This document shows positions 3,432 through 30,801 of a stretch of 64,000 nucleotides of DNA, one piece after another (position 1 is the stretch's first letter; each line of letters starts with the position of its first letter). The translations under genes were made by a program, and so were the position numbers. This DNA comes from Omphalotus guepiniiformis (lineage: Eukaryota; Basidiomycota; Agaricomycetes; Agaricales; Omphalotaceae), in NCBI GenBank assembly GCA_028554645.1, contig JAQOOI010000021.1, forward strand, positions 2,046,001 to 2,110,000, given 5' to 3'. The notes under the pieces are model-generated. The model had not been told where the DNA came from and ran no database searches. It worked only from the letters and a program-made list of their open reading frames with translations.

Positions 3432-3444
3432 TCTCCCCCTGACT
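3432..3444 (-). other. Polypurine tract of B
   Basis: On the minus strand AGTCAGGGGGAGA abuts the TG of the 3' LTR. It shares the terminal GGGGGAGA with family A. Confidence 0.7.
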
Positions 3445-3451
3445 AAAATAT

Positions 3452-3819
3452 CGACTGTCCCAGTCGCTGGGGTCCTACTCAGGGTCTATCCCGGAAAGGC
3501 GCATCAACCTCCCTTTTCTGGATATCACAAACTTCTTTCTGACTCATGTAGCGCTCTCCCTCCTTCTTGTCACATCACATGCCATCACGTTACCTTATTG
3601 GTAAATCGCCGCGTCTCTTCATTCCTCATCGTCCGGTTACGTTAGTTCCCGGACATACCGGTTATTCAGTTAATGGATTGCCATCGCTTCTTTGTCAAAG
3701 CTGTATGTCGTACCCTGAATAAGTGTGTAATACATCAAACTTTTGCTCTCGCGTCTTCTAGGAATGGAACTCGATACTGGCACCATTCTGAGGACCCCAT
3801 CGCCGCGAGGTGTATATAA
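3452..3819 (+). promoter_or_regulatory. Putative X1 promoter of B: hairpin (3452-3466) and TATA box (3813-3819)
   Basis: A perfect 6-bp hairpin CGACTG-TCC-CAGTCG lies next to the polypurine tract. TATATAA follows at 3813, 64 bp before the ATG at 3877. The stretch between the two holds no gene I can support and is rich in CGCG. Confidence 0.5.
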
Positions 3820-3876
3820 CCTTCAGCGCCCGGGTGTCGAACTTCAACTTTTTGCTCCCTCTTTCATCACTGGTTT

Positions 3877-6154
3877 ATGCCTATCAAGGCTGAACCCCTT
3901 GACTATAACTCTTTAATAGTAAGTGACGCGGTACTTTTTGCGTGTCTTCTTTGCTTAGCTCCGTTTGATAGGCTTTTTCTCCTACTGCTTCTGAGGCCGC
4001 CTTTATTATGCCTTCTTCTCAACCCTCGACTTCACGCGTACACAAACGAAGACGACGCGACGCTTTGCCTCGACCCTCTTCTACTTTGCCTTCCGTCCCG
4101 GACAGCTCACAGCGGTCTATATCCGCCGCGGAGCTTATCTTGCTTGAACAGATCCATACCGGGCAACTTTCCGTTCAACCTTCCGCGGTACTTCCCATTC
4201 CTTCGAACATTCCCGAGGCTTTAGCACCCGTACGCCGTCGTCGAGAGCGCCGTGATAAGGCTTTGTCTGTTCTCAAGAAACGTCGTGCTCGTCATCCTAG
4301 TCAATCTGCTCTGGTTAGTTCCGCGTTCGTTTTATCTGTTGTATTTAACTAACTTGCGGTAGCTTACTCCCGTTACCGCTGAGGATCAGGCAAAATTCGC
4401 CGATGACTTTTTGGCGTTCCGTGACGAGACCTATTCGCTCCCTCCCGCGACTCCTGTGCCTACTGCCGTTGCAACTCGTCCGCGGCCTCCTCGTACTTTG
4501 TCTGACTTGGAGCGCCAACCCTGGCCCACACGTCTAGTAAGTACTCCTTTGTTCCTTGTCTACTAACTCTTCTTCTCATTCTTATCCTTAGTTTGACGAC
4601 GAGGCGGTCGAGTCTTCCAACGAGGGCTCTCCTCCTGCTGCCAAGCGTCGCCGTGGCCCTTTGCGCAAACGAGTAGAGAGTGATTCTGAGGCTTCCGCGG
4701 AGCCTGATAACTCCGTTGGTATTGTGGCTGCTGTATTCTCAGTGACGCGAGACTTGCCTCCCACAGCGCCAACTCCTCGCTTCGTGAGTAATTCCTGTTA
4801 TTCCAACTAGTTTTACTCACTCTACTTCCCAGTCTTTTTCTCGTTCTCCCCCTCCTGTGGACTTATCGCAAGGGTTCACTGTTACTGCCGCGGAACCTTC
4901 GGTTCCTACGAACCTTATTCCTGTCACTCCTACACGGTCCCCACTGGTGGAATCTGGTCCCGCGCCTCTCACTCCTTCTGGTGTCCCAGCCGCATTTTCT
5001 CCTCTGACTAGTACCGTACCCGTTCCTCCTGCTGTACCTGTGCTACCTTCAACTTCCGCGGTTCCTTCTTCTGTGGCAGGACCCTCGACTTTCGTGGAGC
5101 CTCCTGCTACTACTCAGGTTGGAACCAAGGTGAGTTCCTTCCCTGTTTAAGCTGCTTCGTTGCTTATTTCTTTTTCAGGGCAAAAGAAAAGCTTCGCGGA
5201 AGTCTAAACTAGCGACAAAAACTACCGCGTCAACTATTCAAGAGGCCGACCGCTTTCGTACTCCCTCTCCTCGCCCAGGCGACCTCGAAACTAGACGTCG
5301 GTTCCTTCGTGAAGTCGAGGGTTACCCCCAATATTGGTACGAGAAAGTTTTCCCCGCCGCGGAGCACTTTGGTGCCTTTATTCCTCACAACCTTCATCCC
5401 ATCGAGAAGGGGGACAAAGCCACCGCGGTGCCTACTACCGTTGGTGGCTCTTACGAAGGAGGGGTCCGCTGGTATACGGCTAACAACATCCCCGCAAATG
5501 GTTTCATTAACTATGACCTACCGGGTATGGTACCTCCGCTGATGACAAGTCACATTCGCCTTCGCCAGATTGTGGCTTCTTCCGTGAACCTGGTAAGTTC
5601 TTCGATACTTTTTCTTCTTACTTCTCTGATTACTTCTTAGCCCTCCATTCGCTGTGGGTCGTGCATTATTCACGGCAAGCCTTGCGTCTTCGTCAAGGCT
5701 GGGGAGTCATGTAACGAGTGTCTTAGCAAGAAGGACTCCGCGTGCACCTTTCGTTATGGGATTCGCAAGATCGCGTTGGAGGATGAAGCTTTTCACAACC
5801 GCGGACTCTTTTCTGCGCGCCGTATGTCTTCTCCCTTACTACTTTCCCTTTTCTCTGATCTTTCCTTTAGATGCTATGTCTCTGCAACTTGAAGCGTCAA
5901 TGCTTACTGACCGCTTGAATGAACAAGTTGCCGCGATGCACGGTATTCAGAAAATGGCTCAAGCCAAGATCGACGAACTCGCGGATGTTTTAGTACAGGG
6001 TTACTATAACTTCGGTCGCGACTATTTGACGCAGGTCCGCCTTAGTGGTGACCTTGCTCAAATGATTGTGGATGAGAAGATCCTGCCCGCCATCGAGGCT
6101 GGGCAGCTCAAATCAATCAACGCGGCATCCGAACATCAGGCATATCAGAAATAG
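3877..6154 (+). CDS. Accessory gene X1 of Gypsy B: Zn2Cys6-like protein, antisense to the element
   Basis: This is an intron-containing gene opposite to gag-pol. I read eight exons. The first (MPIKAEPLDYNSLI, with a SUMO-like IKAE) splices through gtaagt to a frame open at 3992; the last ends with TAG at 6154. The start at 3877 fits the TATA box 64 bp upstream; the ATG at 4008 is the alternative. The protein has basic RRRR and KKRR runs, a proline/serine-rich linker, a conserved block around YPQYWYEKVFPAAEHFG, then a cysteine cluster at about 5650-5750 spaced C-x2-C-x6-C-x8-C-x2-C-x7-C. This is close to the fungal Zn(II)2Cys6 pattern. A probable coiled coil (MSLQLEASMLTDRLNEQV) closes it. I infer a sequence-specific DNA-binding protein. 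Family membership needs a profile search. Confidence 0.65.
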
Positions 6155-6457
6155 TGGTCCCTGCCTTCTCTGTTCATTTTCTTGCTCTGGTTCCGCGGAA
6201 GTAAAAGCTCTTAGTCTCGTAGTGTTTGTAGTATCGCGGAGCTTGTTTTTTTTTTTCTTTATTTTATTACTTGGAAATGTTATTAGCTTTGTCTCGAGTG
6301 ATTTTAAACTGTGTGACATTTTCCTTGTTCTATAAAATCGAAAATATTCAATCAAGAAATTCTACGCGGCACTTTTCCCAAATTCACGCGATTCTACGCG
6401 GTACTAAACTGTACGCGGTGCTTTCTATTCCTACGACCCTTCCCCATCTTTGAAATC
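6155..6457. other. Spacer between X1 and X2 of B
   Basis: 3' flank of X1 and upstream region of X2. It holds repeated ACGCGG/CGCGGTAC motifs but no gene I can support. Confidence 0.5.
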
Positions 6458-6607
6458 ACAACTGTCCCCAGTTGTTCAGAACACTCGCGACGCTTGGTAA
6501 AGTACCATATGTTCCACCGCGTCAACTTTGAAGGACGGTGCGCGGAACTAGAATTCTACGCGGACAAGTTTCCTTCTGGTCCAGACTGCCCTGGCCAGTT
6601 ATAAAAG
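6458..6607 (+). promoter_or_regulatory. Putative X2 promoter of B: hairpin (6458-6475) and TATA box (6600-6607)
   Basis: A perfect 7-bp hairpin ACAACTG-TCCC-CAGTTGT is followed by TATAAAAG at 6600. The ATG lies 46 bp from the TATA box. It has the same hairpin-then-TATA order as the other accessory genes. Confidence 0.55.
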
Positions 6608-6645
6608 GACCTCCAAACACTAAGTTCTTCCTATCTTAATCACTT

Positions 6646-8085
6646 ATGTCTACTGATACTTCTTCTGTTGACGTCCAGTTTCTCGTGGAAGAGGTAGCAC
6701 CTCTTTACAAGTCGTTTAGCGAGCGTCGAGTCAAACGTGGTGCCGACGATGCTAATCGCGTCGCGATGTCGTGTGCACAAAAACTCGCAAGTTTTCTAAT
6801 GTTCTGCCTTCTGTTCCTGCGCCTTACTTCACTCTTTTTAGCTCGAGCTCTGGAAAGCTCACCCTGATGCCGCGTTGGCTAACGCTGACATTCGTACTTT
6901 CACTCTGTTCTTCTTTGAACATCTGCCGCGGGACCCAGTTACCGCGAAGTATACACCAACTCATCATTTACTTGGTCCGTACCGCGGTAAATGTGTTCAG
7001 TTTGGTAAACCCAAGGAGGTTCCCAAAGTCGCCGCGGCTGCTCCTGTTCCAACTGCTGTAACCCCAGTGCCCGTCAAAGGCAAAGGTCGCGTTCGTACTA
7101 GCCGCCGCGTAAGTAATCAGTTCTTTTTCTTGAATAACCACTGGTACTAAAACTTTTTCCTAGATTCGCAAGCGTATTGCATCCCAAGCTCGTATTGATA
7201 GTAGTGACGAGGAGGTTGACGACGACGCGGCGGGTAGCGATATTGCTATGGGTGACGATGAATCCCCCTCTATTGCAGATTCCACTACTAATACCACGGT
7301 AGGTCGCCACCCTACCCCGAGCCAGCTTGCTCTGTTGCTAAAACTATGTACCTCGCTTCAGACTCTCGACCTCGCAGCAGTTGAAGAAGTTACCCGCGTT
7401 GCCCCCTTTACTCCAAAGGTTGAGCCTAGCGTCGCGGCAGTTAAAAGGGTACGACCACCATTCCTTCTCCCAATGTTATTCTGACTTAACGCTCCTTTCA
7501 TAGCCTCACGCGTCGACTAATCACCCCGTAAGATATCTCCACTTTTCTGAGATACCACGCATGCTTATTACTTCACGGCAATACCTTAAGGCAGTTGCCG
7601 CGGTGGATAAGAGTACCATCAATCCTCCTGCCAAGAAAGCTAAGATGGAGGTGGTTAGTGTCGCGGCAGCTCCTCCTACTTGGGCGCACAACTTCTCTAT
7701 GCTCGATCCACCTCTGGCACCCCCTAGTACGTGTCACGTTTTCATACTGCCGCTAGCGACTTTTCAACTAACCTATCTTTTGGTAGACCCTGTCTCCACT
7801 TTCTCTAACTCGGTTGTGCAGTCACTCGTTGATCGTGCCAATCTCACGGTGCTCGAACCCGTTAGTGGGCCTACTGATCGTAGCCTCACCATGCTGGAGT
7901 TCGAGACTCGCTCTAAACTTATCGCGGTCAACCATCAGATCAGTCTCCAGCTCCAAATGCGGGATTTGCTGATGAAGAGCTACCAGAGCATCGCGTCGCA
8001 GCAGAAGGAGCTGGTTAATAAAACTAACGTTCCCCTTATCGATATGACTGGCGACGAAGATATGCCCTCCGTGACTGATACTTGA
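6646..8085 (+). CDS. Accessory gene X2 of Gypsy B: acidic protein with probable coiled coil, antisense
   Basis: The gene starts MSTDTSSVDVQFLVEEVAPL, 46 bp after a TATA box. Likely introns begin at about 6787 (a GC-AG intron), 7110, 7449, 7530 and 7730. Parts in order: an N-terminal globular segment (LELWKAHPDA to FGKPKEVPKV), a basic linker, an acidic stretch (DSSDEEVDDDAAGSD), then a C-terminal segment with heptad-like spacing (SKLIAVNHQISLQLQM) ending in acidic residues. It has no cysteine cluster. The order of parts resembles A2 X2 at 22732-24057, although direct identity is low. It is convergent with the integrase frame, 221 bp apart. Function unknown; I infer a partner of X1. Confidence 0.6.
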
Positions 8086-8306
8086 ACTGCTTCTGGAACT
8101 TTTCTTGTGCTTCCGCGACACTTTTTAATCTTCTTGTCGTGAATAGAGGTACCGCGTAACTTTCCGTTTCCCTTCCGCACTTGTATTCAACTATCGCGTA
8201 AACTTATTTATTTCCAATTTGTCGCGTATATTTCAACATAACACGTACAGATCATACACTCGTTTTTTATAATAAAACTGCCATGTGGCCCTATCTTTTG
8301 AGTGAT

Positions 8307-9660
8307 TTACTGAAAGATCTTCGGCTTCGATATCCAGTGCTTCGCGTCGTATACTGAAACGTCCGCGTGAATTTCACCATCTAGGTCTGCTTGATCGTGT
8401 TCTACGGATAAATCTTCTTCTTCTTCTTCTAGACCTTGTTCAATTCTCAACAAGCCATCTTCTGACAAACCAATCAACTCACTTAGGTTCTCAGGGAGTT
8501 CAATGTGCGACCTTGGCCAATATGGAATTACGCGGAAGGCTCCGATTTTATTCTGGAACACCGCACCATTTAGGTCTGCCACAATGTAACTGCCACCTGT
8601 GGTACGCCTGAGTACTACCATAGGTCCTAAATAGCGCGGCTTCGTTTTAGAGTTCAAAGATTTTTCAATCTGAGTATTCCTGACTAATACCAAACTACCT
8701 GGCTTAAACGCGTAGTCTTTAATAACATACTTATACTCTTTTTCGAACTTCAACAACCGTGACCTTTTCTCGCGTGTTATGCGTTCCCGCAATTCAACTA
8801 CGTGCTTCGCGTGCTTAGCCAATGCTTTCGCCCGTAGTCCAATTAGTTCCGCGTCACTTATGAAATGATCAGGATATTCTACAAGCCATGTTGCCTCAAC
8901 GATATCAAAAGGTAGCGAGGGGTGCGCACCAGTTACTGCGAAGAATGGGGAGCACCCAAATCGCTTTCTTATGGTACACCTATCAGCCCACATTACTAAG
9001 TAGAAATAGTAAAACCATTTTGAATCGTCACCTCCCGCGGCCTTTATGAGACTGTGTCGCACATCATAATGCGCGTGTTCCACGATACCGTTGGCTTGGG
9101 AGTTATAAGGTGATATGCGAATACCGCGCACGCCATATTTCTTCTCTAACCATTCCAACGCCTTTAGAAAAGGTCCGCCATTATCTGTTACTATCTCTAT
9201 AAGACAGCCCCAGCGGCATATAATTTCTTCCCACAACCACTGCCCAATCGCTCTTGCGGACTCTGCTTTCAATGGTCTTCCTTCCATCCAGCCGGTTAAC
9301 GCGCACCTACCATGTACAATCAGCTTGTAGCCATTCGACGCCGGCATATACATGGTGTCAGCGTGAATTTTCTGAAAGATTGACGGTGTCTTCGTCTCGG
9401 TAGGAGGAATCCTGATCTTTGTCTTTTGTCTTACTTGGCACGTATGACAGGTCTTCACATACTCATAGATGTCTTTCTCCATTTCAGGCCACCAAAAGCG
9501 TTCCATAAGTAAGGATTTAGTAGCGAAGAAGCCGCGGTGCCCCAGACTATCATGACAAGCATGGATCATGGCGACGCGACGCGACTTCTCAACTACCAGC
9601 TTATGTTTTGCCTCAATTCCACGTCGATAGAGTTTTCCGTCTTGTATAAAGAAGTTCCGC
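8307..9660 (-). CDS. Integrase part of B pol (cut off upstream by A2)
   Basis: This is the Ty3/Gypsy integrase. Visible are the zinc-binding HHCC module (HACHDSLGHRG, then CHTCQ), the catalytic core (DTMYMP, then IVTDNGG, then the Glu in GIVEHAHYD) and a C-terminal domain (KPGSLVLVRNTQIEK). The C-terminal tail is acidic. The frame is open through 9660, where the A2 LTR begins, and continues at 44746 in the RNase H/integrase linker once A2 is removed. It ends in TAA at 8307, convergent with X2. Confidence 0.85.
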
Positions 9661-9896
9661 TAATAGCAGCGTAATGAGCACTCTAAGACGTAGGAACTCG
9701 TCTAAACTCAAAGGTTGCCTTGTAAAAGCGAGTGTAGTCTGGCGTTGGCAAAGATTCCGCACGCAGAAAACTGACTAAAGTCGAGCTAGACTGTTGGAAA
9801 GACTAACTGAACTGTAAGATCACCGTCTAGACCCTTCGACGAGTACCAGAAACAGTAAACAGACAGACACAGACAGACAGACACAGACAGACAGAC

Positions 9897-9939
<43 letters not shown>

Positions 9940-11169
9940 GTTCAAACACAACAGATGTTCAGATATTTAGCACTCTATTAAAGCACTGCAATTCCTAATA
10001 GTCCGCCTCTACCAGCTCGAAGAACCGGGGCCTGACGTTCACAATCAAGAGGCCTTCTGCGATTTAACGCTCTAGAAGATACGTAAAGTTCTCCAATTTG
10101 GCGGGCAGTCGTAACCTGGGGCGCTCGACCCTATACATGACAGTATATGTACTCTACTGCTTGTAAGTATTTCATAAATAGATAGAAAACTGAGTGGAGT
10201 AATTAAAAGGAACAGAGGGATAACATCGAGTATAAAATGGATATAAACAGAAACAATATGACTGAGTTGGGTAAGTAGGCACGTCTAGAGGGTAATTATG
10301 TGCAGTTCTTGGGTATATATGTGTAAGTATTATGTTTTAGTGATGTTTTTGGTACATCTAGACCCTTCTTATCATGCGCTCGAGCCATTCTAAACGAACT
10401 ACTCCTATGCATTTCGTTATTATTCATCTTCGTAACTGTTTTACAGTGTACTTATAGGGGCGCCGAGGGCAGTTTCTAGTCATTTATCCCGTCGGGCTTC
10501 CGTATTTTCTCCTATTTCGACATCTAGACCCCATAGCACCTCGTAGATATACCAATATCCAGCGCTCGAAGGTCAATTCTGTCATTACTTTACTAATAAG
10601 TTATTATACAGTCATCGAGACTGATCATTTTCATAGCTTTGACCATCTAGTATCTCGGAACGGAATCGTCGATCATATATTTCCGATCATAAAGCGTTAT
10701 CTCCAGTATATCATCAATCTGCAGGTTCTAGGAGGTCGGCTAAGTTCGAACAAACCATTTTGATGGCTCGGCGATACCTCTAGCTTTGTCCTTTCGACAT
10801 TATCGAGGCTCATGAGGCTATTACGCCTGTGTGTGTGTAGTTTCTTCCTTCCTAAGTCCCGTGGATTACACAGATACTTGAATAGCGACTTCCAGACGAA
10901 GGGCTCTTTGCCAGGCAGGGTGGGTCTGACCATACTGTACAGTCTCGCAGCAGGTAGTTACTTCGCCGAAGGTCTAGAGGCATATCAGCCATAAGGTCTT
11001 GATGCATACTCGTACATCGTAGTCCTTTCACTTCGAGCCTTTAACTATTCGTGTTCTATGTTTTAGCTAGCACTATGGGACATAGTCTAGCCCTTTATTC
11101 CCATCATATTCACAGTAGAAATCGTTTAATTTCAGGTATTTCAGGTGTGTATGCGTTTTCAGCGCAACA
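9661..11169 (-). repeat. 3' LTR of Gypsy A2 (1509 bp)
   Basis: It is an inverted copy of 1378-2870 and parallel to 43249-44741. Its CAGA microsatellite is longer (9858-9941), which accounts for the 16-bp length difference. One substitution beside the tract (cagtaaac against cagcaaac in the others) is visible. It abuts CCGC of element B on the left and the polypurine tract on the right. Confidence 0.92.
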
Positions 11170-11186
11170 TCTCCCCCAAACCAAAT
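11170..11186 (-). other. Polypurine tract of A2
   Basis: TTTGGTTTGGGGGAGA on the minus strand, directly before the TG of the 3' LTR. A near copy lies at 22484-22500 inside the element. Confidence 0.75.
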
Positions 11187-11188
11187 CT

Positions 11189-11272
11189 AGACCGTCCCCG
11201 GTCTGGTGATCGGTCAGTCATACACCCAAAGATACATTCTAAAGCTTCGCAGACAGCCTGTTGATTATATAA
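11189..11272 (+). promoter_or_regulatory. Putative X1 promoter of A2: hairpin (11189-11204) and TATA box (11266-11272)
   Basis: Perfect hairpin AGACCG-TCCC-CGGTCT, then TATATAA. The ATG follows about 400 bp later. A gtgagt...cactcag intron can be drawn in the leader (about 11547-11620), which would explain the distance. Confidence 0.5.
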
Positions 11273-11677
11273 TACTTATTCACACACATCTCAGAGTTCG
11301 CCGAAGCAGTGGTACACTGTTCATTGCTTTTTGCCGGTCTATGCCGATCATCAAACTTCAAACTCCGACCAAAATACTCTCGGCCAGTTGTTTGCCTTCG
11401 GCAATTGCCGTAGGTTCTTTTCAGGCAAGTGACTTTCCGTCTCTTTTCCTCTTTCACATTTCTTATTCAGTTTCTTGCTTCTCTATTCTTTCTTTTCACG
11501 CATCTCTCAGCCTTTCACTGGTCCGTGCGCCGTGGGAACGTGGTCAGGTGAGTCGTTCCATAAGTAAACGGACTTCAACTTTTTCACGCCCATTCTTCCT
11601 TTCTCTCTATTTTTCACTCAGAGTGGCTCTAGCCTTCTGTTTTTCTCTATACATACTTGTTCTTTTCTTTTCTTCTA

Positions 11678-13595
11678 ATGGCGCGAACTACCGGCAAAGC
11701 TTCCAAAGGGAAGGGCAAAGCAGCCTCTTCTTCTCAAATTTCGGCAGTGGCCAAGAAAACTCGAGCCGGTCGAAAGACCGCGCAGATCAACCCTCACGAA
11801 CAAGCCAATGAAGTCATCGCATGTATTGTCGACGTCTATCGTCGTTACTTTGATAAACCACGAAAGAATCCCCCCAAGGTCTCAGAAATGACCAAGGCCG
11901 TGGAAAGTGCCACTCCCTTCATGGTATGTTGTATTTCTTATAGTTTTAATCTTTCATTCTTACATTTTCTCTTCTAGGATACTCTCTTTGAGCACGTCGA
12001 CTTCGACATCGAGGATTTCTGTCCGCATGTGCGCCCGGTGTGGCTAGCTTTAGTGCGACTTTGCAACCCCCTCGAATCTCGACTCCCATCTCTTCACAAG
12101 ACTGGTTGGTATATCTCGAAGGACAATCGACAGGAGAAACATAGTCTCGAGCCTGTAAGTCCTTATTCCACCGTAATCTTTTTAATCTTATTCAATATAA
12201 TTTCCTAGTTTCACGACTTCGATACCATCCTCGGCGACGATTGTGGCGACGACGATACCGTTCTTAGCAACTCAGAGGATGAGGTCCTCGAGTCTGACGA
12301 CGAGTCCGTCCAAGTCAAGCCTGAGGTTCGTTTTCTTCTTCCTATTCCCTTCAAATTTCTTTCTTATATCCTTTCATATTCTAGCCTGTTCTGACTTCGA
12401 AAAAGCGAGCGCTCGAGCTGCTAGAAGACGACGACGACATGGATCTCTTCTCTTTTAAGAAGCCTCGCGCGTCCACTCCTTCCAAAACACTCAAGACTGG
12501 TCCACCCGTTCGCGCAGTGAAGCCCAAACCGAAGCCCAAGCCTAAGGCAAAGGCCCCGACTCCCAAAGAGCCATCTCCTGTTGCTAGCGAAAGGTCGCCG
12601 ACCCCTGCTCCTGCTTCATCAGCGAGGGCTGGTCCTTCTCATCAGGTCTCCGAGGCCGGCCTCTTCACACATCCTGCTAGCGACACGGTCTTCAACCTTG
12701 CCGACTTGCTCCATGCAACTCGAACCATCGACGCAGTAAGTCTCTTTCTTAATTTTATTACTCTTTCATTTATCTTTTATAGCTCACTGGCAGCTTGCCA
12801 TGTACGCGATGTACCGCAGCTCACGCAGCAGAGAAGTGTGTCCCGCCCGAAATACAGAGCACCTCCTACAAATGCGCCGTCTGCTTCAAAAGCAGGCAAC
12901 CTTGTTCATGGACCCTGACGCCGGCTCGTGCCCTCGAGATGCGAAATACGATCTACGGGTTGGCTCGTCAAGGTTCTCATAGTAAGTTTAATCATTTATT
13001 TCTTTTTATTTAACATCTTTTCTCATTTCCTCCTTATTCAGACCTCGGCGCAGAAGTTATTGGTCTCGTCGAGAAGATCTCTGTATACGACCAACTTCGC
13101 CGCAGCGTCTTGGACCTCGCCGACAACGCCAACAAGCTTCGCGAGTCCATCGAGCGGGACCAGGAGCACCTTCGTGGTTCAGTCACCGATCCTACCCTTC
13201 TTTTCAACATTCTTCATCGTAACGACCCTTCATTCAAGGACGAAATCAAAGATTTGAAGATGATAGGCGCGGGCTTGGGCTGGGACATGTCGGTTTTGGA
13301 TCGAGACTCGAGCTTGGTGAAAACGGAGACTGGTTTTCAGATCCAACCGAGTTCGTCGCGCCTTCCCCTCGACTTCTCTAAATCCGACACTCGCAGCACC
13401 ATCGAGCGCATGGTAACCTCGGCTCTCGTGCCTCTTCGCTCTTCGGCAAATGCTTCATCTTCCCGGGTACCTGCGTCGGCTGGTTCTTCCTTTCCATCCT
13501 CCCTCCCTACCATTACGACACTCAACACCGCCCGTTCCCCGGTGGAGGAGGAAAGCGTTGGTCGGATCCTGGCAGAGGATAGTCCGGAGAGGTGA
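11678..13595 (+). CDS. Accessory gene X1 of Gypsy A2: Zn2Cys6-like protein, antisense
   Basis: I read six exons, with introns starting near 11923, 12152, 12326, 12736 and 12980. The N-terminus is basic (MARTTGKASKGKGKAA). Next come a conserved segment around HVRPVWLALVRLCNP, an acidic stretch (NSEDEVLESDDESVQV) and a proline/lysine-rich linker (VKPKPKPKPKAKAPTP). A cysteine cluster at about 12796-12907 has the spacing C-x2-C-x8-C-x11-C-x2-C-x6-C (CTRC... and CAVCFKSRQPC). A probable coiled coil (YDQLRRSVLDLADNANKLRE) follows. The layout equals X1 of B and fits a nuclear DNA-binding protein of the fungal zinc-cluster type, though the first triplet is wider than usual. The stop is TGA at 13593. 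Function is inferred. Confidence 0.65.
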
Positions 13596-13942
13596 CTCGG
13601 GATCTTCGTCGAGGCGTAGCCTACAGTCTTCGGACTTTAAATAATATTTTCATTACATCGCAGCAGGGAGTCTCTTTATAGAGCTCCAAAATCATTATAT
13701 CTAGCAAGGGTTCTCTTCATAGAGGCCCAAATATCTTTGTTTTTCATTTCTTGTACCATGTACATAGAAATCTCGTGGCCTTAGTGCCAAATAAAAGCTT
13801 TCATGTTCTTTCTTTATGTGTGAATCCATTGTTAAGTTCAAATTTAATTTAATATCTTTAAGATTGCCTTCGTCGAGGCTGTAAGTATGGACTCGACTTA
13901 GAGAAATCCCAGCTCGAAGGTAATAAGTAGTAACTAGACCCC
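13596..13942 (+). other. 3' flank of X1 in A2 with polyadenylation-type signal (13789-13796)
   Basis: Non-coding, AT-rich, with AAATAAAA about 200 bp after the stop codon. It ends in CTAGACCCC, where element C was inserted (duplication ACCCC at 13938-13942). The sequence resumes at 22315. Confidence 0.5.
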
Positions 13943-14481: not shown

Positions 14482-14515
14482 GTATTTAAAACTCTTCTCT
14501 GTGCTGCCATTAATC

Positions 14516-16138
14516 ATGTCACAACATCCTATGAACCCCTTACTTGAGGCTTCACAGTCTCATGCACCATTTTACCAAGGTCGTGATCCCAATGCTCTTC
14601 GTGAGCGGCGGAGATCCGGTCTATACTCAGTTCGCGCAAGTGAATTCGTCTCACCAAGCCGAGGCTCACGCCTTTCTCAACAACCTCCGGTCCTATCGAC
14701 CCTATTCTCACCAGGACACCTGCCTGGTTTCCGAAATCCTCCGGTAACTCCGACTCGTCGAACTTCCACAATGCCGGGAGTATTACCGATACATGAAGAC
14801 GTTTCAGATACTGCTCCTGAAGAGCAGAATGACGAAGACGATGACATTATCGCAGCGGCGACGGAAGGAGAGGCTGGAGATCAGCCAGAAGGAATAGAAG
14901 GTAATGGTGGAGATCCTGGAGAAGGCGATGAAGGTAATGGTGGTGGTGGACCAGGCCATGGAGGTCCAGGTGGACCTGGCGGGCCTGGAGGACCAGGTGG
15001 AAATGGTGGCGGTGGACCGGGTGGTCCTGGAGGTCCTGGGGAACCTTCCGGGGGTACCGGTGGCACCGGTGATGAAGATTTTAGGCGGATGATGCAGGAG
15101 TTTCTTACCACTAGCATGGCTGGTTTTACTAACATGGCTAGGGCATTTAATACACAGGCATCCGCAGCTCCGGAGAGCAAATCGCGCTTGAAGGAGCCAG
15201 ACGTTTTTGACGGCTCGGACCCGCGGAAGCTCCGAAACTTCATCATTTCCTTGGCCCTTCACCACTCAGATCGGCCTCAATATTTCTCTTCTGACGATCG
15301 TAAGATCACTTTTGCGCTCTCTTATTTGTCTGGATCAGCTCTGGAATATTTCCAGCCAGAGCTTCTGAACCCGGATCCGGACGATCCTCCGGCATGGATG
15401 GTCAATTATCAGGCCTTCATGCAGGAGCTGATGGAAAATTTCGGAGAGTATGATATGGAAGCGGAGGCTGAGCAACGCCTCAGTGGGCTCAAAATGAGGG
15501 ATACGGATCGGATCCGTAACTACAATGTGAAATTCGGAGCCTACGCAGCAATGGTTCTTTGGGATCAAGCTGCTCTACGTTGGGCCTATTATCAAGGTTT
15601 GCCTTCTCGTATTAATGACGAACTCATGCGGATCGAGTATCCGAAAACTTATCAGGGGACCCGGAAGGAAGCCACAAAAATCGACGCTCGCCACTGGGCT
15701 CGCTCTGCTGAAAAGCAGCGAGAACAGCGAATGTCCGGTGGAGGCTCCGGTAACTCCGGAAGTGGATCCTCTACTTCACAATCCGGTTCGCAGAAGAAGA
15801 AGAGTGGCAGTTTCAACAAGCCCTCCTCTTCTTCTAACAACCGCTCGAACTCCGGAAACTCTGGTTCTGGTTCTGGTTCTGGCTCCGGTTCTAACTCCGG
15901 CAAGACAAATTCCTCTTCGACCACGCCAAAGCCATACGCAGATAGGCTAGGAAAGGATGGGAAGTTGACGCAGGCGGAGAAGGACAGGCGCCGGAAGTTG
16001 AAGTTATGTTTCTTCTGTGGAGGTAATCATACTATGGATAATTGTGATAAGCGGAAGAAGTTGAACGAGGCTCGTGGACGAGCTTCGGAGGTAACTTCGG
16101 AGGACTCCAAACCGACTCCAAAGGAGTCGGAAAAATAG
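14516..16138 (+). CDS. gag: Gag of Gypsy C
   Basis: Capsid/nucleocapsid polyprotein of about 540 residues, starting at the ATG at 14516 ([10 protein letters not shown]). Parts in order: an acidic stretch, a long Gly/Pro-rich low-complexity run (about residues 140-195), a retrotransposon gag core ([34 protein letters not shown]), a Ser/Gly-rich linker and a zinc knuckle [13 protein letters not shown]. The knuckle spacing is C-x2-C-x3-H-x4-C, one residue shorter than usual. It ends with TAG at 16136; pol continues in the -1 frame. Confidence 0.9.
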
Positions 16139-16167
16139 TCCGCAGCCCAGATGCCTCGACACGAAAT

Positions 16168-17466
16168 TTGGGTTGCGTTGGCCACGATCGTGTCATCTCC
16201 GAGGTTACTCTCAACGCGTCCGCTCTTTTACACCACTCTGATTCGCTTGTATTACCACTTTGTATCGATCGGAGCTCCTCGGGCCTCAAGGGCCTCGTTA
16301 GGGAGCCCGAAAATGAGTCTACTTCATTTTTGAAATTTTCTACATTACTTGATTCTGGTTCTTCTCATAGTTTCCTCGATTCAAAATTTGTTCATGATTA
16401 TTTTCTTCCGGTAACTCCGGTTCCTCCGGTGCGACTACGCCTTCTTGATGGTTCAACCGCTTCTTCATTAATTGAAGAGCTAGTTACTTTACCAGTTCAA
16501 TTTCCTTCCGGGGAGACCTTGTCTCTTGACTTTTTTGTCACTTCTTTGGATTCGTCTTGTAAAGCTGTTTTAGGATACAACTTTCTCACCCGCTACAACC
16601 CGTTGGTTGACTGGGTCACAGGAGTTATTTCATTCCGAAACACTGACCAAACAGTTCCATCTCCCATTCCGCAGGCTGCATCTTCAACTCCGGTTGAGGT
16701 CGCGTCCATCGACGCATCTCCGACACCTACCTCTCGTCCTCGTCCTCGGAAGGCGAACTTTCCCTTTGAACCCATCTACTCATATCCAACCGTCACGCAA
16801 ATGGGAGCAAGAATTTCAGACCCGTCGGATCCGGATATTGCTTTTATTGGTGCTGCAGCATTCATACGGGCTTGCAAGGAAGCTGGACAAGATCCCATTG
16901 TGATCTACGGACGTCCGGTTACCTCCGTTACTGGTAACGCAGCATCTATCCATCCACCTGTTGATCTCTCCGGAATTCCGGAAGAGTATCACGATTTTGC
17001 TGACGTTTTTGATGAAGGTCTTTCAGAAGTCTTACCACCGTACCGCCCTTACGACCTTAAAATCAACTTAGAGGACGGTGCTGAACCTCCTCTCGGACGT
17101 GTTTACCCACTGTCCGCGAAGGAACTAGAGGCCCTTAGGGCTTTCTTGGACAAGCATCTCGCCAACGGATTCATTACGACCTCTTCATCTAACCACGGAG
17201 CGCCGGTATTGTTTGTTCCTAAAAAGAATGGCTCACTCCGTCTCTGTATAGATTTTCGTGGCTTGAACAAGATTACCCGCAAGGACCGGTATCCTTTACC
17301 ATTAATTTCCGACCTCCTCGACGCTCCTAAAAAGGGAAAATCTATACCAAGCTTGATCTTCGACATGCTTACCACTTGGTCCGGATCGCCGAGGGAGACG
17401 AATGGAAAACTGCTTTCCGCACCAGATACGGCTCTTACGAATGGAAGGTCATTCCTGAGGGACTAA
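16168..17466 (+). CDS. pol: Pol of Gypsy C, part 1: protease and N-terminal RT
   Basis: The frame is -1 relative to gag and open from before the gag stop, so a -1 shift at the GGAAAAATAG region is the likely mode of expression; there is no good ATG. It encodes an aspartic protease ([16 protein letters not shown], Asp-Ser-Gly) and the beginning of the reverse transcriptase ([20 protein letters not shown]). True RT homology stops near 17340 at PKKGK; the remainder of this frame is out of frame. The next part overlaps in the -1 frame. Confidence 0.85.
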
Positions 17467-19979
17467 CCAATGCTCCGGCGGCTTTTCAACGGTTTGTAAA
17501 TGAAATATTTGCTGACTTACTAGACGTCTACGTTATTGTCTACCTTGACGACGTTCTAATCTATTCGGACAACCGAGCAGACCATCGAAAACATGTCCGC
17601 GAGGTTCTCCGACGCCTCCGGAAGCACGGCTTATTCTGCAATCCCAACAAATGTGTCTTCGACTCCGAAACTGTTGAATACCTCGGTTACATTCTGTCAC
17701 CGGACGGTCTTCGGATGTCCGAGGAGAAGGTTAAGGCCATCGTCGATTGGCCCCTTCCTCGACCCGGACACATCAAAGACATTCAGTCCTTCCTTGGTTT
17801 CTGTAATTTCTATCGCCGTTTCATCTTCAACTATTCTGGTATCGTGGTTCCACTAACTCGTCTTACTCGCAAAGGTATTCCTTGGAAATGGTCCGAGGAG
17901 TGTCAACATTCTTTTGATTCACTTAAATCTGCTTTTCTTTCCGCTCCTGTTCTAACTCACTGGGAACCTGACCGACAGATAATCCTGGAAACGGACGCCT
18001 CGGACTACGCCATAGCGGCAATTCTTTCACTTCGTATGGACGATGGAGAAATCCATCCAGTCGCATTTCTTTCTCGGACCCTTCATGCCGCCGAGCTCAA
18101 CTACGACACCCACGACAAGGAGCTCCTCGCCATCTTTGAATCTTTCCAACACTGGCGGCATTACTTGGAGGGCTCCGCAACGCCGGTCGACGTGGTCACA
18201 GATCATAAGAACTTGGAGTACTTCAGTACTACCAAGGTCTTGACACGCCAACAGGTTAGATGGAGTGAATACTTGTCTCACTTTAATATGGTAATCCGGT
18301 TCCGACCGGGACGCCTCGGAGCAAAACCTGATGCTCTGACTCGACGTTGGGACGTCTACCCAAAAGAGGGAGATAGCACTTACGCTACGGTCAATCCACA
18401 GAATCTGAAACCGATTTTCACCCAAGAACAACTATCGACTTCACTTCGAGCAACCTTCCTAGAAGGTCCAGTCCTTCGCGCTAGTATCATTATGGACCTC
18501 GACAAACTACACCAGTCGATCCGAGAATCTCTAGCTTCGGACTCGGAGTCCAAGGCAGGTATGTCACTTGCCAATGATGATGCTAACAAACGTTGGACTT
18601 TAGACAACTCCGGACAACTCCGGCTCGACGGTCGCATTTATGTTCCAGATTCGGGTGACTTACGGCTTCAGGTACTTCGATATTTCCATGACCATCCACT
18701 CTCGGGACACTTTGGGCAGAACCGGACACTCGAGGTCATCCGAAGACAGTATACCTGGCCTCGGATCCGGGAGTTCGTCCGGTCCTACGTGCAATCCTGC
18801 ACTGTTTGCGGTCGCAACAAGAGCCGTAGACACCGTCCTTATGGTCTTCTTCAACCTCTCCCAGTTCCGGAACGTCCTTGGGATTCCATATCCATGGACT
18901 TCATTGAACAACTTCCGGACTCTCATGGCTTTACAGCCATTCTAGTCGTGGTAGACAGGGCATCTAAGCAAGCCATTTTTATTCCTACTTTTGACACCAT
19001 AACCTCTGAACAGCTAGCCCAACTTTTCGTCCTTCACGTATTTTCCAAACACGGTGTTCCTCGGCACGTCACCTCCGACCGGGGCTCTGAATTTGTCTCG
19101 CAGTTTTTTAGGGCTTTAGGTAAAGCATTGCAGATGGAGCTCCATTTCACCTCCGGTTATCATCCGGAGGCTGATGGACAAACTGAACGAGCTAACCAAA
19201 CTCTGGAACAGTACATCCGAATTTATTGCTCTTACCAACAGGATGACTGGGATGAACTCTTGGCCATTGCAGAGTTTGCCTACAATAACGCTCCGAACAG
19301 CTCCACTGGTATTTCACCCTTCTTTGCCAACAAAGGTTATCACCCAAACCTTTCAATACATCCGGAATACGACCTCGCATCCGACCGGGCTCGACAGTTT
19401 GTGGTCAACCTTGATGAGCTCCATGCTTTTCTACGCGATGAGATTACTCTCGCTCAGACTCGTTACAAGGAACAAGCTGACCGGCGGAGGTCCTCGGCTC
19501 CGGAATTGCCCATTGGCTCAGAAGTATATCTTAACGCTAAGCACATTCGTTCTACTCGTCCTACAGCTAAATTTTCCGAGAAATATTTAGGTCCATTCAA
19601 AATACTAGCTCGACCTAGTAACCTTGCTTATACACTACAGCTTCCGGACTACCTCCGGTCCGTACATCCAGTATTCCATGTCTCTCAACTCGAACCAGCA
19701 CCTCCCAACACCATTCCTAACCGTTCACAACCTCCGCCTCCGCCGGTTGAGGTCAACGGTGAAGTTGAATACGAGATTGCTCAGATACTGGATTCCAAGC
19801 TGGACCGGAGACGCCGAAAGTGTCCGCTATTGTACTATGTGCAATGGCTTGGTTATGAAGGGACGGATGAAGAATTTTCATGGGTCTTAGCTGATGAACT
19901 CACAGCTGAAGACTACATCCAGGAGTTCCATGTCCGATATCCGGACAAACCTGGACCTCTGTCGAAGTTGACAATCTGA
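17376..19979 (+). CDS. pol: Pol of Gypsy C, part 2: RT, RNase H, integrase, chromodomain
   Basis: Continuation of pol in the -1 frame; RT homology in this frame begins near 17338 ([16 protein letters not shown]). It shows the RT active site YLDDVLIYS, RNase H ([28 protein letters not shown]), integrase with zinc module (CTVCGRNKS), catalytic Asp in SMDFIEQLP and TSDRGSEF and Glu in [10 protein letters not shown], then a chromodomain near the end ([18 protein letters not shown]). The chromodomain places C among chromoviruses and would direct integration to modified chromatin. It ends at 19979, convergent with gene X. Confidence 0.92.
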
Positions 19980-20185
19980 TCGGACGTCCTCGGACGTTGA
20001 CGGTCTTGGTGTTTCTTTCTTTCTCTCTATCCCTTTTGCTCTCTCTCTTTCTATCACGCTTATCTCGTTATAAAAAACAGACATTTCTTTATACAAAACA
20101 AAACAAAAGCTATCAAGAAAAACAAAACAAAAGACATATTATATACAAGTTCTTTTTTCTTTTCTATCTACAACTCCTTCTCTAT

Positions 20186-21506
20186 TCATGTCCTACTCGG
20201 ACCTCCTCGCTCTTCCCGTCGTCTTTCAATTTCTTTTCGCCTTTCAGCGAACATCTTTCGCTCCTCCGCGGTATAGCGAGTATTCGTTTCCTCTTCTTCT
20301 CTGATCCTCTCTGCCGGTACTTCTCGGAGCCCCGTACAGATCTCGTCCACCTGCTCAAAAAACTCAGTCAACTGAGCGGCCTCTCCGCCCAGTACTCCTT
20401 GCACCATCCTACTGTTCATGACACTAGGCAACGTCGGCTCTCGCACCTCCGGACGGGCATCCGATCGCTCTGCTTGGTCGCGCTCCCAAGCAAAGTGTAA
20501 TTCCCGGCCCATTTCGGCGAGCCGGATCGAGGCGTTGATTATCGCCTGGTTCATGATATAGGACCCCTGAACAGGAGTCGCGGCACCCATTGCCATTCCC
20601 AAGGCAAGGGCCCAGTCGCGGGTCCGTTCCGCCAAGAATACACCCCAACTAGAGACCTCTTCTCTAGTTGAGTAGACGGCGGCGTCAACGTCATCGATCC
20701 GCCGGTTCACCAAGTCCAAGTCGGAGAGCTCCGCGGAGTCCCGAGGCTCTCCTGCTCGTCCCTCGACCTTCTTCTCTAACCTAGCTAACCGGGATAGTAT
20801 TTCTTCATTTTGCTGCATGAGCAGCTCGAGGGAAGCCGGAGATAGGGAAGTGGTGGTGGTGCTCGGAGCGCCGACTCGCTCCGAAAACGAGCATCTTGAT
20901 TTTTGCTTCCTGCATTCGTCGCAGGAAGTAGATTTTGTGTTCCGAGGTCGCCCGGAACATTGATAGTGTCGTGCCCGACACTGCAGGCATGCGGGTCGGG
21001 AGCTCGGACCTCCGGTCTCTTCTTCTTCTTCTCCATCTGAAATTACAATAGACTAAAATTTTGTTATAAATCTAGTCCAATACTCATGTTTGTTCACGTA
21101 CCGCTGATACCACATTTTTTCTCTTTCTCTTAGGAGACCCACCGGCCTCCGGTTCCTCTTGCGCTTTCCTCTTTCCGTCCCTCTTCTCCTTCCTTCTCCT
21201 TGCTTCCTCGGCCTTCTCAATAGCCCTCCTGGCTTTCCTCTCCTCCTCCGCCTCACTCTCCTCCTCGGCCCTCCGTTTCTCCTCATCCAAAATTCTCTGT
21301 GCCTCCTCAACTTCTCTCCTCCTTCGTTCTCGCTCCTCCGCCCTCCACTTCTCTTGCGCCTCCTGACGCCACTCCTGAATCCTCCGGACTTCCTCTGTCC
21401 ACTCATTCTTTGCCTTGTCATATTCGGCCCACTCCCTATCCTCCTCCTGTTCAACTAAAAAGGACATTGAGTATCGGACATCCGCGGACAGAAAAAACTT
21501 ACCCAT
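20186..21506 (-). CDS. Accessory gene X of Gypsy C: Zn2Cys6-type protein, antisense
   Basis: Antisense to gag-pol. The ATG at 21506 (GCCATGG context) lies one base before a gtaagt intron. Exon 2 encodes a charged helical stretch of about 120 residues rich in Glu, Arg and Lys (coiled coil) with a basic KRKRK run. A second intron (donor GTGAAC, acceptor CAG) puts exon 3 in the frame of a cysteine cluster at about 20888-20987: CLQCRARHYQC, 11 residues, CDECRKQKSRC. This fits the Zn(II)2Cys6 consensus C-x2-C-x6-C-x11-C-x2-C-x6-C. A predicted coiled coil (LLMQQNEEILSRLARLEKKV) and a helical domain follow. Known members of this fold bind CGG triplets; C is dense in CCGG. That link is my inference. 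Confidence 0.75.
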
Positions 21507-21619
21507 GGCAATCGCCAATTTTATTCTATCAAACTCCTCCGCATTCTCCGGTGTCTTCCTTCGAGGCAATGCAGGCTTTATGCGGGGTTGGGGGGAACTT
21601 AGAGGTTTGCAGGCTAGGC

Positions 21620-21765
21620 TTTTATACCAATCCATTGTTTGGCAGGATTTGGTCGATGTTGAAAATTCGGACACATCTCACTCCGAGGGGCAGGGTCGGA
21701 CTTGAGACTTCGGACCTGGGACTTGGGACTTGGGACTTAGGGTTCTTGAGGGCAAGAACCCTAAG
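21620..21765 (-). promoter_or_regulatory. Putative gene X promoter in C: 13-bp hairpin (21736-21765) and TATA box (21620-21626)
   Basis: The arms CTTAGGGTTCTTG and CAAGAACCCTAAG are perfectly complementary. Read on the minus strand the loop is CCCT. TATAAAA follows about 110 bp downstream, 115 bp before the ATG. GGGACTT is repeated in tandem beside the hairpin. The polypurine stretch AAGAGGGAGATAC (21763-21775) overlaps its outer edge and abuts the 3' LTR. Confidence 0.6.
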
Positions 21766-21775
21766 AGGGAGATAC

Positions 21776-22314
21776 TGTTACAGCTATGCGCCGGAACTCC
21801 GGGTCAGACCTCCGGTTTCTAGAACTTCTTTGATTTCTTCTTCCTGACATCTATTCAATCTTTCCATATGGTTCACTTTACAAATTCACGGTTTCCTATT
21901 CGCTCTTATTATTCTTTTTTACTCCGGACATCCGAACGTCTCCGACGTTCCATGTCCTTATTGTTCTTTTGTTTCACTCTTTCTCACACTATTGTTTATT
22001 TACTCCGAGTATCTCCGGTAGAATACTCATATAAATACTTCACGTTTGTACTGTACATACTTTAGTTTTAAATCAAATTAGTCTCTGGACTACTATCTTG
22101 AATTTCTTGTCTAAACTCTCATCTCTCCTCGGACTTCCAATCCGGGTGCAGCACGGGGGGCAGTATCGAAATAATACTGCCTACCGGGTGAAGTCTTGTT
22201 GCCGGAGCAATTCGGAGCTCCTGGTTATCTTGTCTTGTTCCTTTCGACTCCTTCTCTCGGACCTCCTCGGAGGTCCTCGCTCTCTTACCGTCTCTAGTCC
22301 GCACGGACTTAACA
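21776..22314 (+). repeat. 3' LTR of Gypsy C (539 bp)
   Basis: Same length as the 5' LTR, with the same TG...CA ends and no difference in the stretches I compared. It is followed by the duplication ACCCC (22315-22319) and the resumed sequence of A2. Confidence 0.93.
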
Positions 22315-22483
22315 ACCCCTTTATTCATAAGTCTCGTGCCCTTACTTATCACTTCTGTGCCTCAGGCACTTATTTGTTCGTTTCAACCAATCTTAGATGT
22401 TGATTTATTGAAATCTAAAACACTTAAGTTTCGTTTTTATGAAATCTTTAGAAATTTCAAAATTCTATGTCCTAGATGGACTC

Positions 22484-22500
22484 CTCTCCCCCAAACCAAA
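22484..22500 (-). other. Internal polypurine-tract-like copy in A2
   Basis: TTTGGTTTGGGGGAGAG on the minus strand nearly repeats the tract at 11170-11186 but is not next to an LTR. It lies between X1 and X2 and could act as a central plus-strand primer, or be a relic of duplication of an X-gene unit. The flanking 22320-22483 holds no gene. Confidence 0.55.
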
Positions 22501-22507
22501 AGAAGTT

Positions 22508-22628
22508 CAGCGTCCCCGCTGCATATCTCGGCTAGTCCTTAGTTAAGTCCAGGGTGCCTTAATCAGTCGGGCATGTTACTTCGTCGAAGGGACCAGGAGT
22601 TCCGCTTTCAGTCAGAAAAGTATAAAGG
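22508..22628 (+). promoter_or_regulatory. Putative X2 promoter of A2: hairpin (22508-22521) and TATA box (22621-22628)
   Basis: Perfect 5-bp hairpin CAGCG-TCCC-CGCTG, then TATAAAGG about 100 bp on and the ATG 104 bp after that. It follows the internal polypurine-like tract exactly as the X1 hairpin follows the terminal one. Confidence 0.55.
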
Positions 22629-22731
22629 AGGGTCGCCGAAGGTGGGTCCAAGTTATCAGTACACTTTAAGACCTTCAACCTGCATTCTCGACCTTACTTT
22701 CGTCTTCTTCTCGTTCATATTTCATCGTCAC

Positions 22732-24057
22732 ATGGCTCGAGGATCCAACAAGACCTGGCCCGAGAGGGATCAATGGTTAAAGGAGACTCAAGAGGCCATT
22801 ACTGCCGCTCAAGCCGTTCAAGCCTTCCCCAAAGCCAGTCCCAAGCTTCTAGGACCAGTCGTGACGGCTCTAGCCGATCATATGGTTTGTTTATTATATT
22901 CTTCAGGCTTCGTCGAGCTCATATTTCTTCATAGTCAAAGCCTTTGAATGCCAAAGTGGTGGCCAAGGATGATATCGCCTTTGATACCTTCCAGAAAGGA
23001 CTCAACACTGTGATAGCTATTACAGAGATTGATGGGGTAAATCGTCCCTACCATCTAAATGGGCTCGAGGAGTTCTTTGCCAAGCTCGAGGTGCTTCGAC
23101 AGCCCACTCGCAAGCGCAAGGTAACTCTCCTCTTTCCTCATTAATCTTTACAAGCTTCATTCTATACTCTTCACAGAACGTTAAATCTCCTCTTATCATC
23201 GAAGACGATGATGATGATGATGAGATCGAGTTCGTCGGAGGTCGGATTGCTTCTACTCCAGTAAGTATCCATATTTCTTAGGTCGAGACTCCGACTTGAC
23301 CTAAGTTTAGGACTATAAAGCCGGACTCGCAGCCGCATTGGGTCTTTCTGCATCCATGCATGCCCCTTCTCAAGAATTAAGCCTTCCACCTGGCCTCAAG
23401 TTCAACAAGAAGGTCAGGGTAAGTGCGGTGTCTTCTTATCCATCATATTATAACTTCGCCGAACGTTCAGGACGTCGCGAATCGTTCTTCTACTCTTTCA
23501 TTGGCCCTCGGCGATGTACCTGGAATGGATGTACGTTCTCGTTCCTACCTCAAGGCCATGTATTACTTATCAGTTGCTCAGGATAACATTGCAGCTGCCA
23601 ATGGCAAGCGCATTCGCCTCGAGCAACCCATTTCCGATCTTCGTGAGGATATTGAGGGTAAGTAAGCATGGGTTCTCCCTGTCTCGACCCTACTGATCAT
23701 ATTGACCAGAGGATAAGACCCTACGAGAAGCCGCCATCGCTACAACTTTCCGTCATATCGCGCTCACTCCATATCTCGAACTGCCCAAGCTTAGCGTCGA
23801 AGCTTTACGCTCAGTTCTCAATTTCCTTCGTACCGAACAAGTCACTCTTCAGCATGCTGTACATTTCCATGCCAATCAATACCAGTTCGTTGTTAAACAG
23901 ATGGACAACATTCAACGAGAGCAATTTAGTCGTCTCTCAGTCGAGGACAAGCAAACCGCTGATTCTTCATCTTCGGAGACCCCTCAAGATGCTACCATGG
24001 AGGAGGCTGGGTCTAGCTCAGCTGATACCACAGCTACCAACTCTAGCAGTGCCTAAG
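22732..24057 (+). CDS. Accessory gene X2 of Gypsy A2: acidic protein, antisense
   Basis: The start is MARGSNKTWPERDQWLKETQ. About five introns are readable (first donor near 22885, others near 23121, 23262, 23419, 23660). The N-terminal part includes PLNAKVVAKDDIAFDTFQKG and PYHLNGLEEFFAKLEVL. A strongly acidic run (EDDDDDDEIEFVGG), a middle part, and a C-terminal helical segment (VTLQHAVHFHANQYQFVVKQ) with a Ser/Thr/Glu tail follow. It has no cysteine cluster. Position, strand, acidic middle and helical end match X2 of B. It is convergent with the integrase frame, 190 bp apart. Function unknown. Confidence 0.65.
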
Positions 24058-25612: not shown

Positions 25613-25666
25613 ACGGCGTCCTTTCTCAACTATTAGCTGATGTTGTCCACCAACTTCATCATTTCT

Positions 25667-29649: not shown

Positions 29650-29657
29650 CGAAAGTA

Positions 29658-30793: not shown

Positions 30794-30801
30794 AGCAGTC
30801 A

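Follow-up and report, generated by a model that had tools for sequence, protein, structure and literature searches.

Spliced antisense zinc-cluster-like genes and family-specific CpG words in nested Gypsy elements of Omphalotus guepiniiformis

The window considered here, i.e., the whole stretch of 64,000 nucleotides at positions 2,046,001 to 2,110,000 (forward strand) of contig JAQOOI010000021.1 (assembly GCA_028554645.1) of the basidiomycete Omphalotus guepiniiformis, is a nest of transposable elements, where the Gypsy long terminal repeat (LTR) element A sits inside the Gypsy element B, and both a third Gypsy element, C, and a KDZ transposon sit inside A. As claimed in an earlier note made from the sequence alone, each of the three LTR elements carries a spliced gene on the strand opposite to gag-pol (C lying on the plus strand, A and B on the minus strand), between the integrase and the 3' LTR. 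These genes, namely A1, B1 and C1, encode a domain of six cysteines (Cys) and have the antisense orientation and the pol-to-3'-LTR position of the class aORF-3R. In A and in B, a further antisense gene with several exons, A2 and B2, respectively, is situated between the zinc-cluster gene and the integrase (Table 1).

Table 1. Antisense genes, CpG words and elements in the window (positions of the window; for genes on the minus strand the higher position is given first)
Feature	Position	Strand	Remarks
A1, zinc-cluster gene, antisense to A	11678-13595	+	5 introns, 547 amino acids (aa)
A1 exons	11678-11923, 11978-12154, 12209-12325, 12385-12735, 12783-12981, 13042-13595	+	
A1 six-Cys exon	12783-12981	+	
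B1, zinc-cluster gene, antisense to B	3877-6154	+	7 introns, 641 aa
B1 exons	3877-3918, 3972-4313, 4363-4536, 4592-4783, 4833-5129, 5179-5592, 5641-5821, 5871-6154	+	
B1 six-Cys exon	5641-5821	+	Conserved part of B1
C1, zinc-cluster gene, antisense to C	21635-20186	-	2 introns, 450 aa
C1 exons	21635-21503, 21454-21102, 21052-20186	-	
A2, second antisense gene of A	22732-24057	+	7 exons; homologue in family D
B2, second antisense gene of B	6646-8085	+	5-6 exons; first intron GC-AG
CCGCG words, 3' half of B	2871-9660	both	Continue in 44742-51639
CCGGA and CGGAG words	13943-22314		Over element C; conservation tested in 3' part
CTCGA words, element A	22315-30801		Weaker signal; also 9661-13941 and 42396-44741
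Element C	13943-22314	+	Chromovirus, antisense C1 inside
Element C LTRs	13943-14481, 21776-22314		Target-site duplication ACCCC
Element C gag	14480-16138	+	
Element C pol	16051-19979	+	Chromodomain
Element A	9661-44741	-	Split by C and by KDZ transposon
Element A LTRs	43249-44741 (5'), 9661-11169 (3')		
Element A integrase	25666-24248	-	
Element A reverse transcriptase (RT)/RNase H	28387-25667	-	
Element A protease	29700-28297	-	
Element A gag	from 43092	-	KDZ transposon inserted in A gag
Element B	2871-51639	-	Split by A
Element B LTR parts	51078-51639, 2871-3431		
Element B gag	50319-48550	-	
Element B protease	48580-47336	-	
Element B RT/RNase H	47411-44817	-	
Element B integrase	9659-8307	-	
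KDZ transposon	30802-42395		Pfam KDZ, expectation value (E) 2e-41; terminal inverted repeats about 355 bp, 99.4%

The spliced models of A1, B1 and C1 were built by hand; their introns are all GT-AG and 47-60 bases long, the spliced frames are uninterrupted, and a splice-aware aligner queried with the A1 protein recovered the A1 exon model exactly. From the start codon to the 3' LTR the distance is 140 bp for C1, 509 for A1 and 446 for B1. The N-terminal part of C1, encoded by exon 1, is the least certain piece, because the two-intron model recurred in only 3 of the 30 C1 loci presented below (one of them a fragment), the aligner placing more introns elsewhere. The extent of 20186-21506 given to C1 in the earlier note agrees at the 20186 end but removes most of exon 1, the present model running to 21635. 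Neither A2 nor B2 has a domain above any cut-off in a Pfam search, and a homology between the two, considered as a candidate, was set aside when BLASTP gave none. The stretch SIVISDGEEEEE precedes the zinc cluster of C1, and A2 contains LIIEDDDDDD; both resemble SUMO-interaction motifs, which we take to be candidates for that role.

A1, B1 and C1 are real protein genes, which evolve under strong purifying selection and remain associated with their elements. In searches of the 42.5-Mb genome to which the window belongs, exon-wise matches amount to 102 for C1, 137 for A1 and 133 for B1. Thirty A1 and thirty C1 loci were examined, all of them found via the gene, so that element copies without it are invisible in these counts. 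Conservation in other copies of the families, on which the earlier note had made its proposal depend, is seen at these loci. Among the A1 loci (window copy included), 24 are full-length without a stop and 6 contain stops, the six-Cys pattern and the five introns are each kept in 29/30, and A2 lies on the A1 strand within the stretch in 29/30, the exception being the window copy, where C intervenes. Among the C1 loci, 23 are full-length without a stop, 29 keep the Cys pattern, and the C pol on the opposite strand and the C LTR are each found in 28/30. The ratio of non-synonymous to synonymous substitution rates (dN/dS) is 0.07-0.21 over twelve chosen copies (six C1 copies 0.07-0.14; five A1 copies 0.09-0.21), with dS of 0.05-0.50 in eleven of them and near saturation in L045; for C1 against L013, it is 0.10; for B1, it is 0.17 against L070 and 0.20 against L071, where dS is near saturation, and 0.04 for the zinc exon against L070. 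Since pol does not overlap the antisense genes, this selection acts on their own proteins. Likewise, the Cys pattern is not a chance arrangement, because all six Cys are retained in aligned relatives with a protein identity of 59% (A1), 58-59% (B1) and 34-47% (C1). An alternative where the antisense unit acts as RNA, e.g., as double-stranded RNA or in copy-number control, with merely incidental frames, can draw on the antisense retroelement RNAs with possible regulatory roles described elsewhere (PMC7264820); it is very improbable in view of these dN/dS values and of the introns and six Cys conserved even in the diverged alleles.

The Cys spacings read from the spliced models are those given in the earlier note, namely C-x2-C-x8-C-x11-C-x2-C-x6-C in A1, C-x2-C-x6-C-x8-C-x2-C-x7-C in B1 and C-x2-C-x6-C-x11-C-x2-C-x6-C in C1. 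The consensus of the Zn(II)2Cys6 cluster is C-x2-C-x6-C-x5..12-C-x2-C-x6..8-C, into which C1 fits, as had been stated, and so does B1; A1 does not, with x8 in its first loop, and neither does the zinc-cluster gene of a fourth family, D, presented below. The match to the Pfam profile Zn_clus (PF00172), proposed in the earlier note as a check on all three proteins, is borne out for C1 alone, at 21.7 bits for a cut-off of 21, with the second Cys triplet aligning to the first half of the profile. The excised B1 domain reaches 12.6 bits, i.e., under the cut-off, and A1 has no match to Zn_clus, its excised domain yielding only a PHD-variant below the cut-off (E 0.04). The zinc exon of family D likewise has no Pfam match over the cut-off, Zn_clus included. 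A sequence search of the PDB with C1 returned a TFIID subunit (E 0.08) and the zinc-cluster protein Leu3 (E 0.28-0.41).

Respective to the ancestry of these genes, the earlier note supposed a common gene kept across families as distant as a chromovirus (C) and the A/B lineage, which is not supported. In profile comparison, the alignment of A1, B1 and C1 is weak and confined to the Cys domain (E 0.001 for A1-C1, 0.035 for A1-B1 and 0.033 for B1-C1); homology outside it was looked for in the same comparison and none was found. C1 has relatives outside the element, i.e., a spliced gene array at locus L069 (1-9901, contig C15), which are near full-length, 34-47% identical and have all six Cys; within these 9.9 kb there is no match to the A/B integrase or C pol queries. 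Further C1-like matches occur near the ends of some other contigs, and arrays of the L069 type are perhaps subtelomeric. These relatives, and the restriction of the alignment to the Cys domain, make it probable that C1 was acquired from a family outside the element, or passed to one, separately from A1 and B1. The same relatives could suggest a chance capture of host genes without benefit to the element, which is hardly credible given the purifying selection, the intact genes at most loci examined and the recurrence of such a pair of genes in all of A, B and D. In family D, whose integrase is 58% identical to that of B and whose antisense region is L075, the zinc gene (C-x2-C-x8-C-x8-C-x2-C-x6-C) is A1-like (25%, E 4e-5) and the second gene A2-like (31%, E 3e-10), with gene order and strand as in A. 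Since A1 and A2 both have a homologous counterpart in D, arranged alike, inheritance of the gene pair within the A/B lineage is supported by the sequence comparisons.

In the A/B lineage, A1 and B1 each fall into allele classes that are deeply diverged (51-74% identity) on elements that are otherwise near-identical (flanks 91-100%). Comparing B with L070 and L071, identity is 97-99% from the LTR to 3773, 91-97% in the start-codon block, 51-71% in the gene body of B1, 76-85% in the gap behind and 91-100% from B2 onward, stretches of B2 itself being 81-100% identical. Comparing A with L045, it is 99-100% up to 11526, 93% in the final block ahead of the start codon, 58-74% in A1, 91-93% just behind and 98-100% further on. 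The diverged classes of B1 spare the zinc exon, with a dN of 0.10 vs 0.34-0.46 elsewhere (L070, L071), and those of A1 do not (0.28 vs 0.31-0.34). For each of eleven B1 matches in the 53-57% classes, an integrase with 99-100% identity to the B integrase is found 3.6-4.0 kb away; for three others of these classes (C12:547257, C48:45315 and C53:120213), no integrase is present within 8 kb among the matches listed. At L062, A1 is a recombinant, where the first 250 residues are 98-100% L045-like and those from residue 301 on are 98-100% of the window type, the junction falling near the start of the zinc cluster. From this pattern, the A1 and B1 variants look like old alleles that have moved between recent elements. 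Such allele cassettes on near-identical elements would constitute an unusual maintained variation inside a transposon population.

Besides these genes, B and C are filled with a CpG word of their own, which occurs on either strand, in coding as well as non-coding sequence, and more often than protein sequence and codon usage account for; A is weaker in this respect. Against dinucleotide shuffles, CCGCG occurs 145 times in B (20.9 expected), CCGGA 90 times (22.3) and CGGAG 85 times (22.7) in C, and CTCGA 107 times in A (34.6); for comparison, the top word has a z score (z) of 5.5 in the KDZ element and of 6.2 in the right flank. Against synonymous-codon shuffles, which preserve protein and codon usage (A2 and B2 were left out), CCGCG counts 84 vs 20.2 in B (z 14.2), the two C words 76 vs 34.6 and 68 vs 29.3 (z 7.8 each) and CTCGA 63 vs 29.6 in A (z 6.3), words of the other families taken as controls having z of -2.4 to 1.2. 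When 4-kb pieces were compared, CCGCG was the top 5-mer in 4/4 B pieces (z 12.6-18.1) and a C word in 2/2 C pieces (z 11.5 and 10.1), the top word of fifteen control pieces reaching a z of at most 7.6. A higher-order Markov expectation hid the words, because their shorter sub-words are themselves enriched, and was given up in favour of the two kinds of shuffles. In B, CCGCG is found 76 times on the plus and 69 times on the minus strand, in 12/12 tabulated element parts and most densely in the LTR (21 per kb), with 32 CCGCGG palindromes among the words. TCCGG is absent from two short gaps beside C1. By eye, no common gap between word copies appears save that of overlapping palindromes.

The words of B and C also look selected. 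Between copies, the C words are kept above other CpG 5-mers in 6/6 comparisons (odds ratio 1.7-2.5) and the B words in 3/3 (odds ratio 2.1-4.4; B1 body only), in a test that counts sites in both directions and thus has optimistic p-values. In the diverged gene bodies, word density is steady (28, 32 and 30 for B1; 22, 16 and 16 for A1) with few sites shared with the window copy (8-9 for B1; 2 for A1), and CCGCG is retained in the diverged B classes (z 18-21). Genome-wide, there are 99 triplets of consecutive CCGCG words vs 34 for the reversed control, of which 52 lie within 11 kb of B copies, i.e., in 2.2% of the genome, and 120 TCCGG triplets vs 37, where 68/100 among the matches listed have a C1 locus at a distance of 8.5 kb or less; the element copies behind these counts are not independent. 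Such element-wide words would mean that synonymous sites in gag and pol are under selection for the recognition of DNA.

A CpG lies at the centre of all three words. Those of B and C contain CCG/CGG, which is the usual half-site of zinc-cluster proteins; this CCG/CGG content, together with the conserved zinc exon of B1, agrees with a word-reading protein. With a probability of about 0.4, we propose that the antisense zinc-cluster protein reads a family CpG word built along the element, coding parts included, the alleles of the A/B lineage being idiomorph-like and swapped by recombination. The antisense gene would be expressed from its own promoter beside the 3' LTR, and its zinc-cluster-like product would be nuclear and bind the word of its own family, by which all family copies would be marked in trans. 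Bound along the element, the protein could keep the LTR promoter open or remove silent chromatin (anti-silencing), its action on the family copies being most simply to keep them transcribable; the diverged remainder of the protein would meet host factors in an arms race, and A2/B2 might be a partner subunit. As for the transcription or anti-silencing factor put forward in the earlier note, a nuclear DNA-binding regulator fits the conserved spliced proteins, the Cys clusters, the basic stretches and the family words, which are weaker in A than in B and C, but anti-silencing itself we only infer.

Several observations weigh against a word-reading protein. What ties the word to the protein is association alone. 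The spacings and profiles of A1 and D misfit a standard Zn2Cys6 cluster, and structure models computed without alignment, with a predicted local distance difference test (pLDDT) score of 46 for exon 3 of C1 and 51 for the zinc exon of B1, are too poor to show a fold. CTCGA is the top 5-mer in just 1/3 of the 4-kb A pieces (z 10.2) and is conserved significantly above other CpG words in 0/4 comparisons. Family D, which has both antisense genes, shows no clear word over the 5.3 kb covered (top z 4.7); ATAATG was considered as a D word and set aside, its 13 sites being all on one strand. Elements without an antisense gene are not among the control pieces, one of which, the pol-free second half of L069, has CCGCG as its top word (z 5.8). 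Finally, of the 99 CCGCG triplets, 47 are not near any B copy, and several of these are close to contig ends.

Part of these observations would be expected if the words were targets of host factors, e.g., a transcription factor or the methylation/demethylation machinery, or a by-product of context bias, the zinc-cluster gene being unrelated; the D genes without a clear word, the central CpG common to all three words and the mild CCGCG enrichment in the pol-free piece go in that direction. A genome-wide mutational bias agrees poorly with three words in three families of one genome, none of which is over-represented in coding sequence of the other two families, and the synonymous shuffles had preserved codon usage; this explanation is rather unlikely. 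An equally doubtful explanation is that the antisense genes encode nuclear accessory proteins with another job, such as import or export of RNA or cDNA, packaging or the choice of insertion site, the words serving something else. Accessory roles have been proposed for the plant antisense genes (PMC7264820), and both A-into-B junctions seen in the window are at the CCGC/CCGCG word of B, where A is flanked by the 4-bp duplication CCGC (9657-9660 and 44742-44745) at a CCGCG word and where another A copy, which is incomplete (1 to about 2870), adjoins the B LTR directly ahead of CCGCG (2866-2875). On the other side, words that are near strand-symmetric (76/69) and partly palindromic point to double-stranded DNA rather than RNA, and they occupy coding and non-coding parts alike.

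Elements A, B and C all look young, because their LTR pairs are identical (C over 540 bp, the B LTR parts over 562 bp) or 98.8% identical (A over 1509 columns, with 2 mismatches and the remainder gaps). At the pol end of C, a chromodomain (PF00385, 27.0 bits for a cut-off of 25.1) identifies a chromovirus. The pol frames of A and B pass Pfam cut-offs for RNase H and the integrase zinc-binding domain only, and the integrases of A copies are 56-57% identical to that of B. The KDZ transposon is flanked by the 8-bp duplication AGCAGTCA, and a minus-strand frame within it (36870-37436) has sub-cut-off similarities to Tet_JBP (E 0.04) and 2OG-Fe(II) oxygenase (E 0.05); fungal DNA transposons encoding TET/JBP have been described (PMC12730594). 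Near the right window end, 62327-62989 is 84% like the B leader (50401-51037) and probably a piece of another element of the B lineage. An inverted repeat is present at 57344-58012 (arms 257 bp, 87%, with 155 bp between).

For the antisense genes of LTR elements in plants and fungi, a DNA-binding-like domain together with a candidate word in two or three families makes the question of their role directly testable. Antisense genes between pol and the 3' LTR are already known, both in plants and, as brtn, in the Boty-like elements of Botrytis and Sclerotinia, where a fungal antisense gene lies at this position (PMC7264820; PMC8365987). The latter are likewise fungal elements, albeit of ascomycetes, and are likened here by description, not by sequence. 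Zhao et al. 2011 is reportedly the source study for brtn. The statement in the earlier note that no fungal zinc-cluster version had been described stands to the extent that neither such a gene nor such words were found in the literature searched, whose coverage excludes most subscription papers, but for a fungal antisense gene at this position brtn is a precedent. A survey of fungal Gypsy elements reports additional reading frames of unknown function (PMC2864245). With the plant genes, those of A, B and C share position and orientation and, as far as loci found via the gene itself can tell, presence in most copies; an own promoter and a nuclear location were reported for the plant gene in Grande, and no clear protein similarity has been described for the plant genes save to an SMC and a transposase-28 domain (PMC7264820). 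Unlike these, the genes here are multi-exon and zinc-cluster-like, come as two genes in A, B and D, and have hypervariable A1 and B1 alleles. With the fungal Zn(II)2Cys6 transcription factors (PF00172), they have in common the spacing of C1 and B1, the profile match of C1 and the CCG/CGG in the B and C words; they differ by the spacing in A1 and D, by a profile match that is absent or sub-cut-off in A1, B1 and D, and by being inside LTR elements. The closest logic is that of the VANC anti-silencing proteins of Arabidopsis VANDAL transposons, where an element-encoded protein has variable regions and a short word is strongly over-represented in its own family (PMC5735166; PMC10398659). Such own-family enrichment is found clearly in B and C, partly in A and not in D. 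VANDAL transposons are not LTR elements and the protein is unrelated, the VANC domains DUF1985 and DUF287 having no Pfam match in A1, B1, C1, A2 or B2; moreover, the VANC words, as these sources present them, are mainly non-coding, in one orientation and often in tandem repeats, whereas those described here are dispersed and on both strands, coding parts included. The antisense zinc-cluster proteins may tentatively, at somewhat short of even odds, be viewed as self-recognising, element-encoded regulators with a VANC-like logic and no VANC homology.

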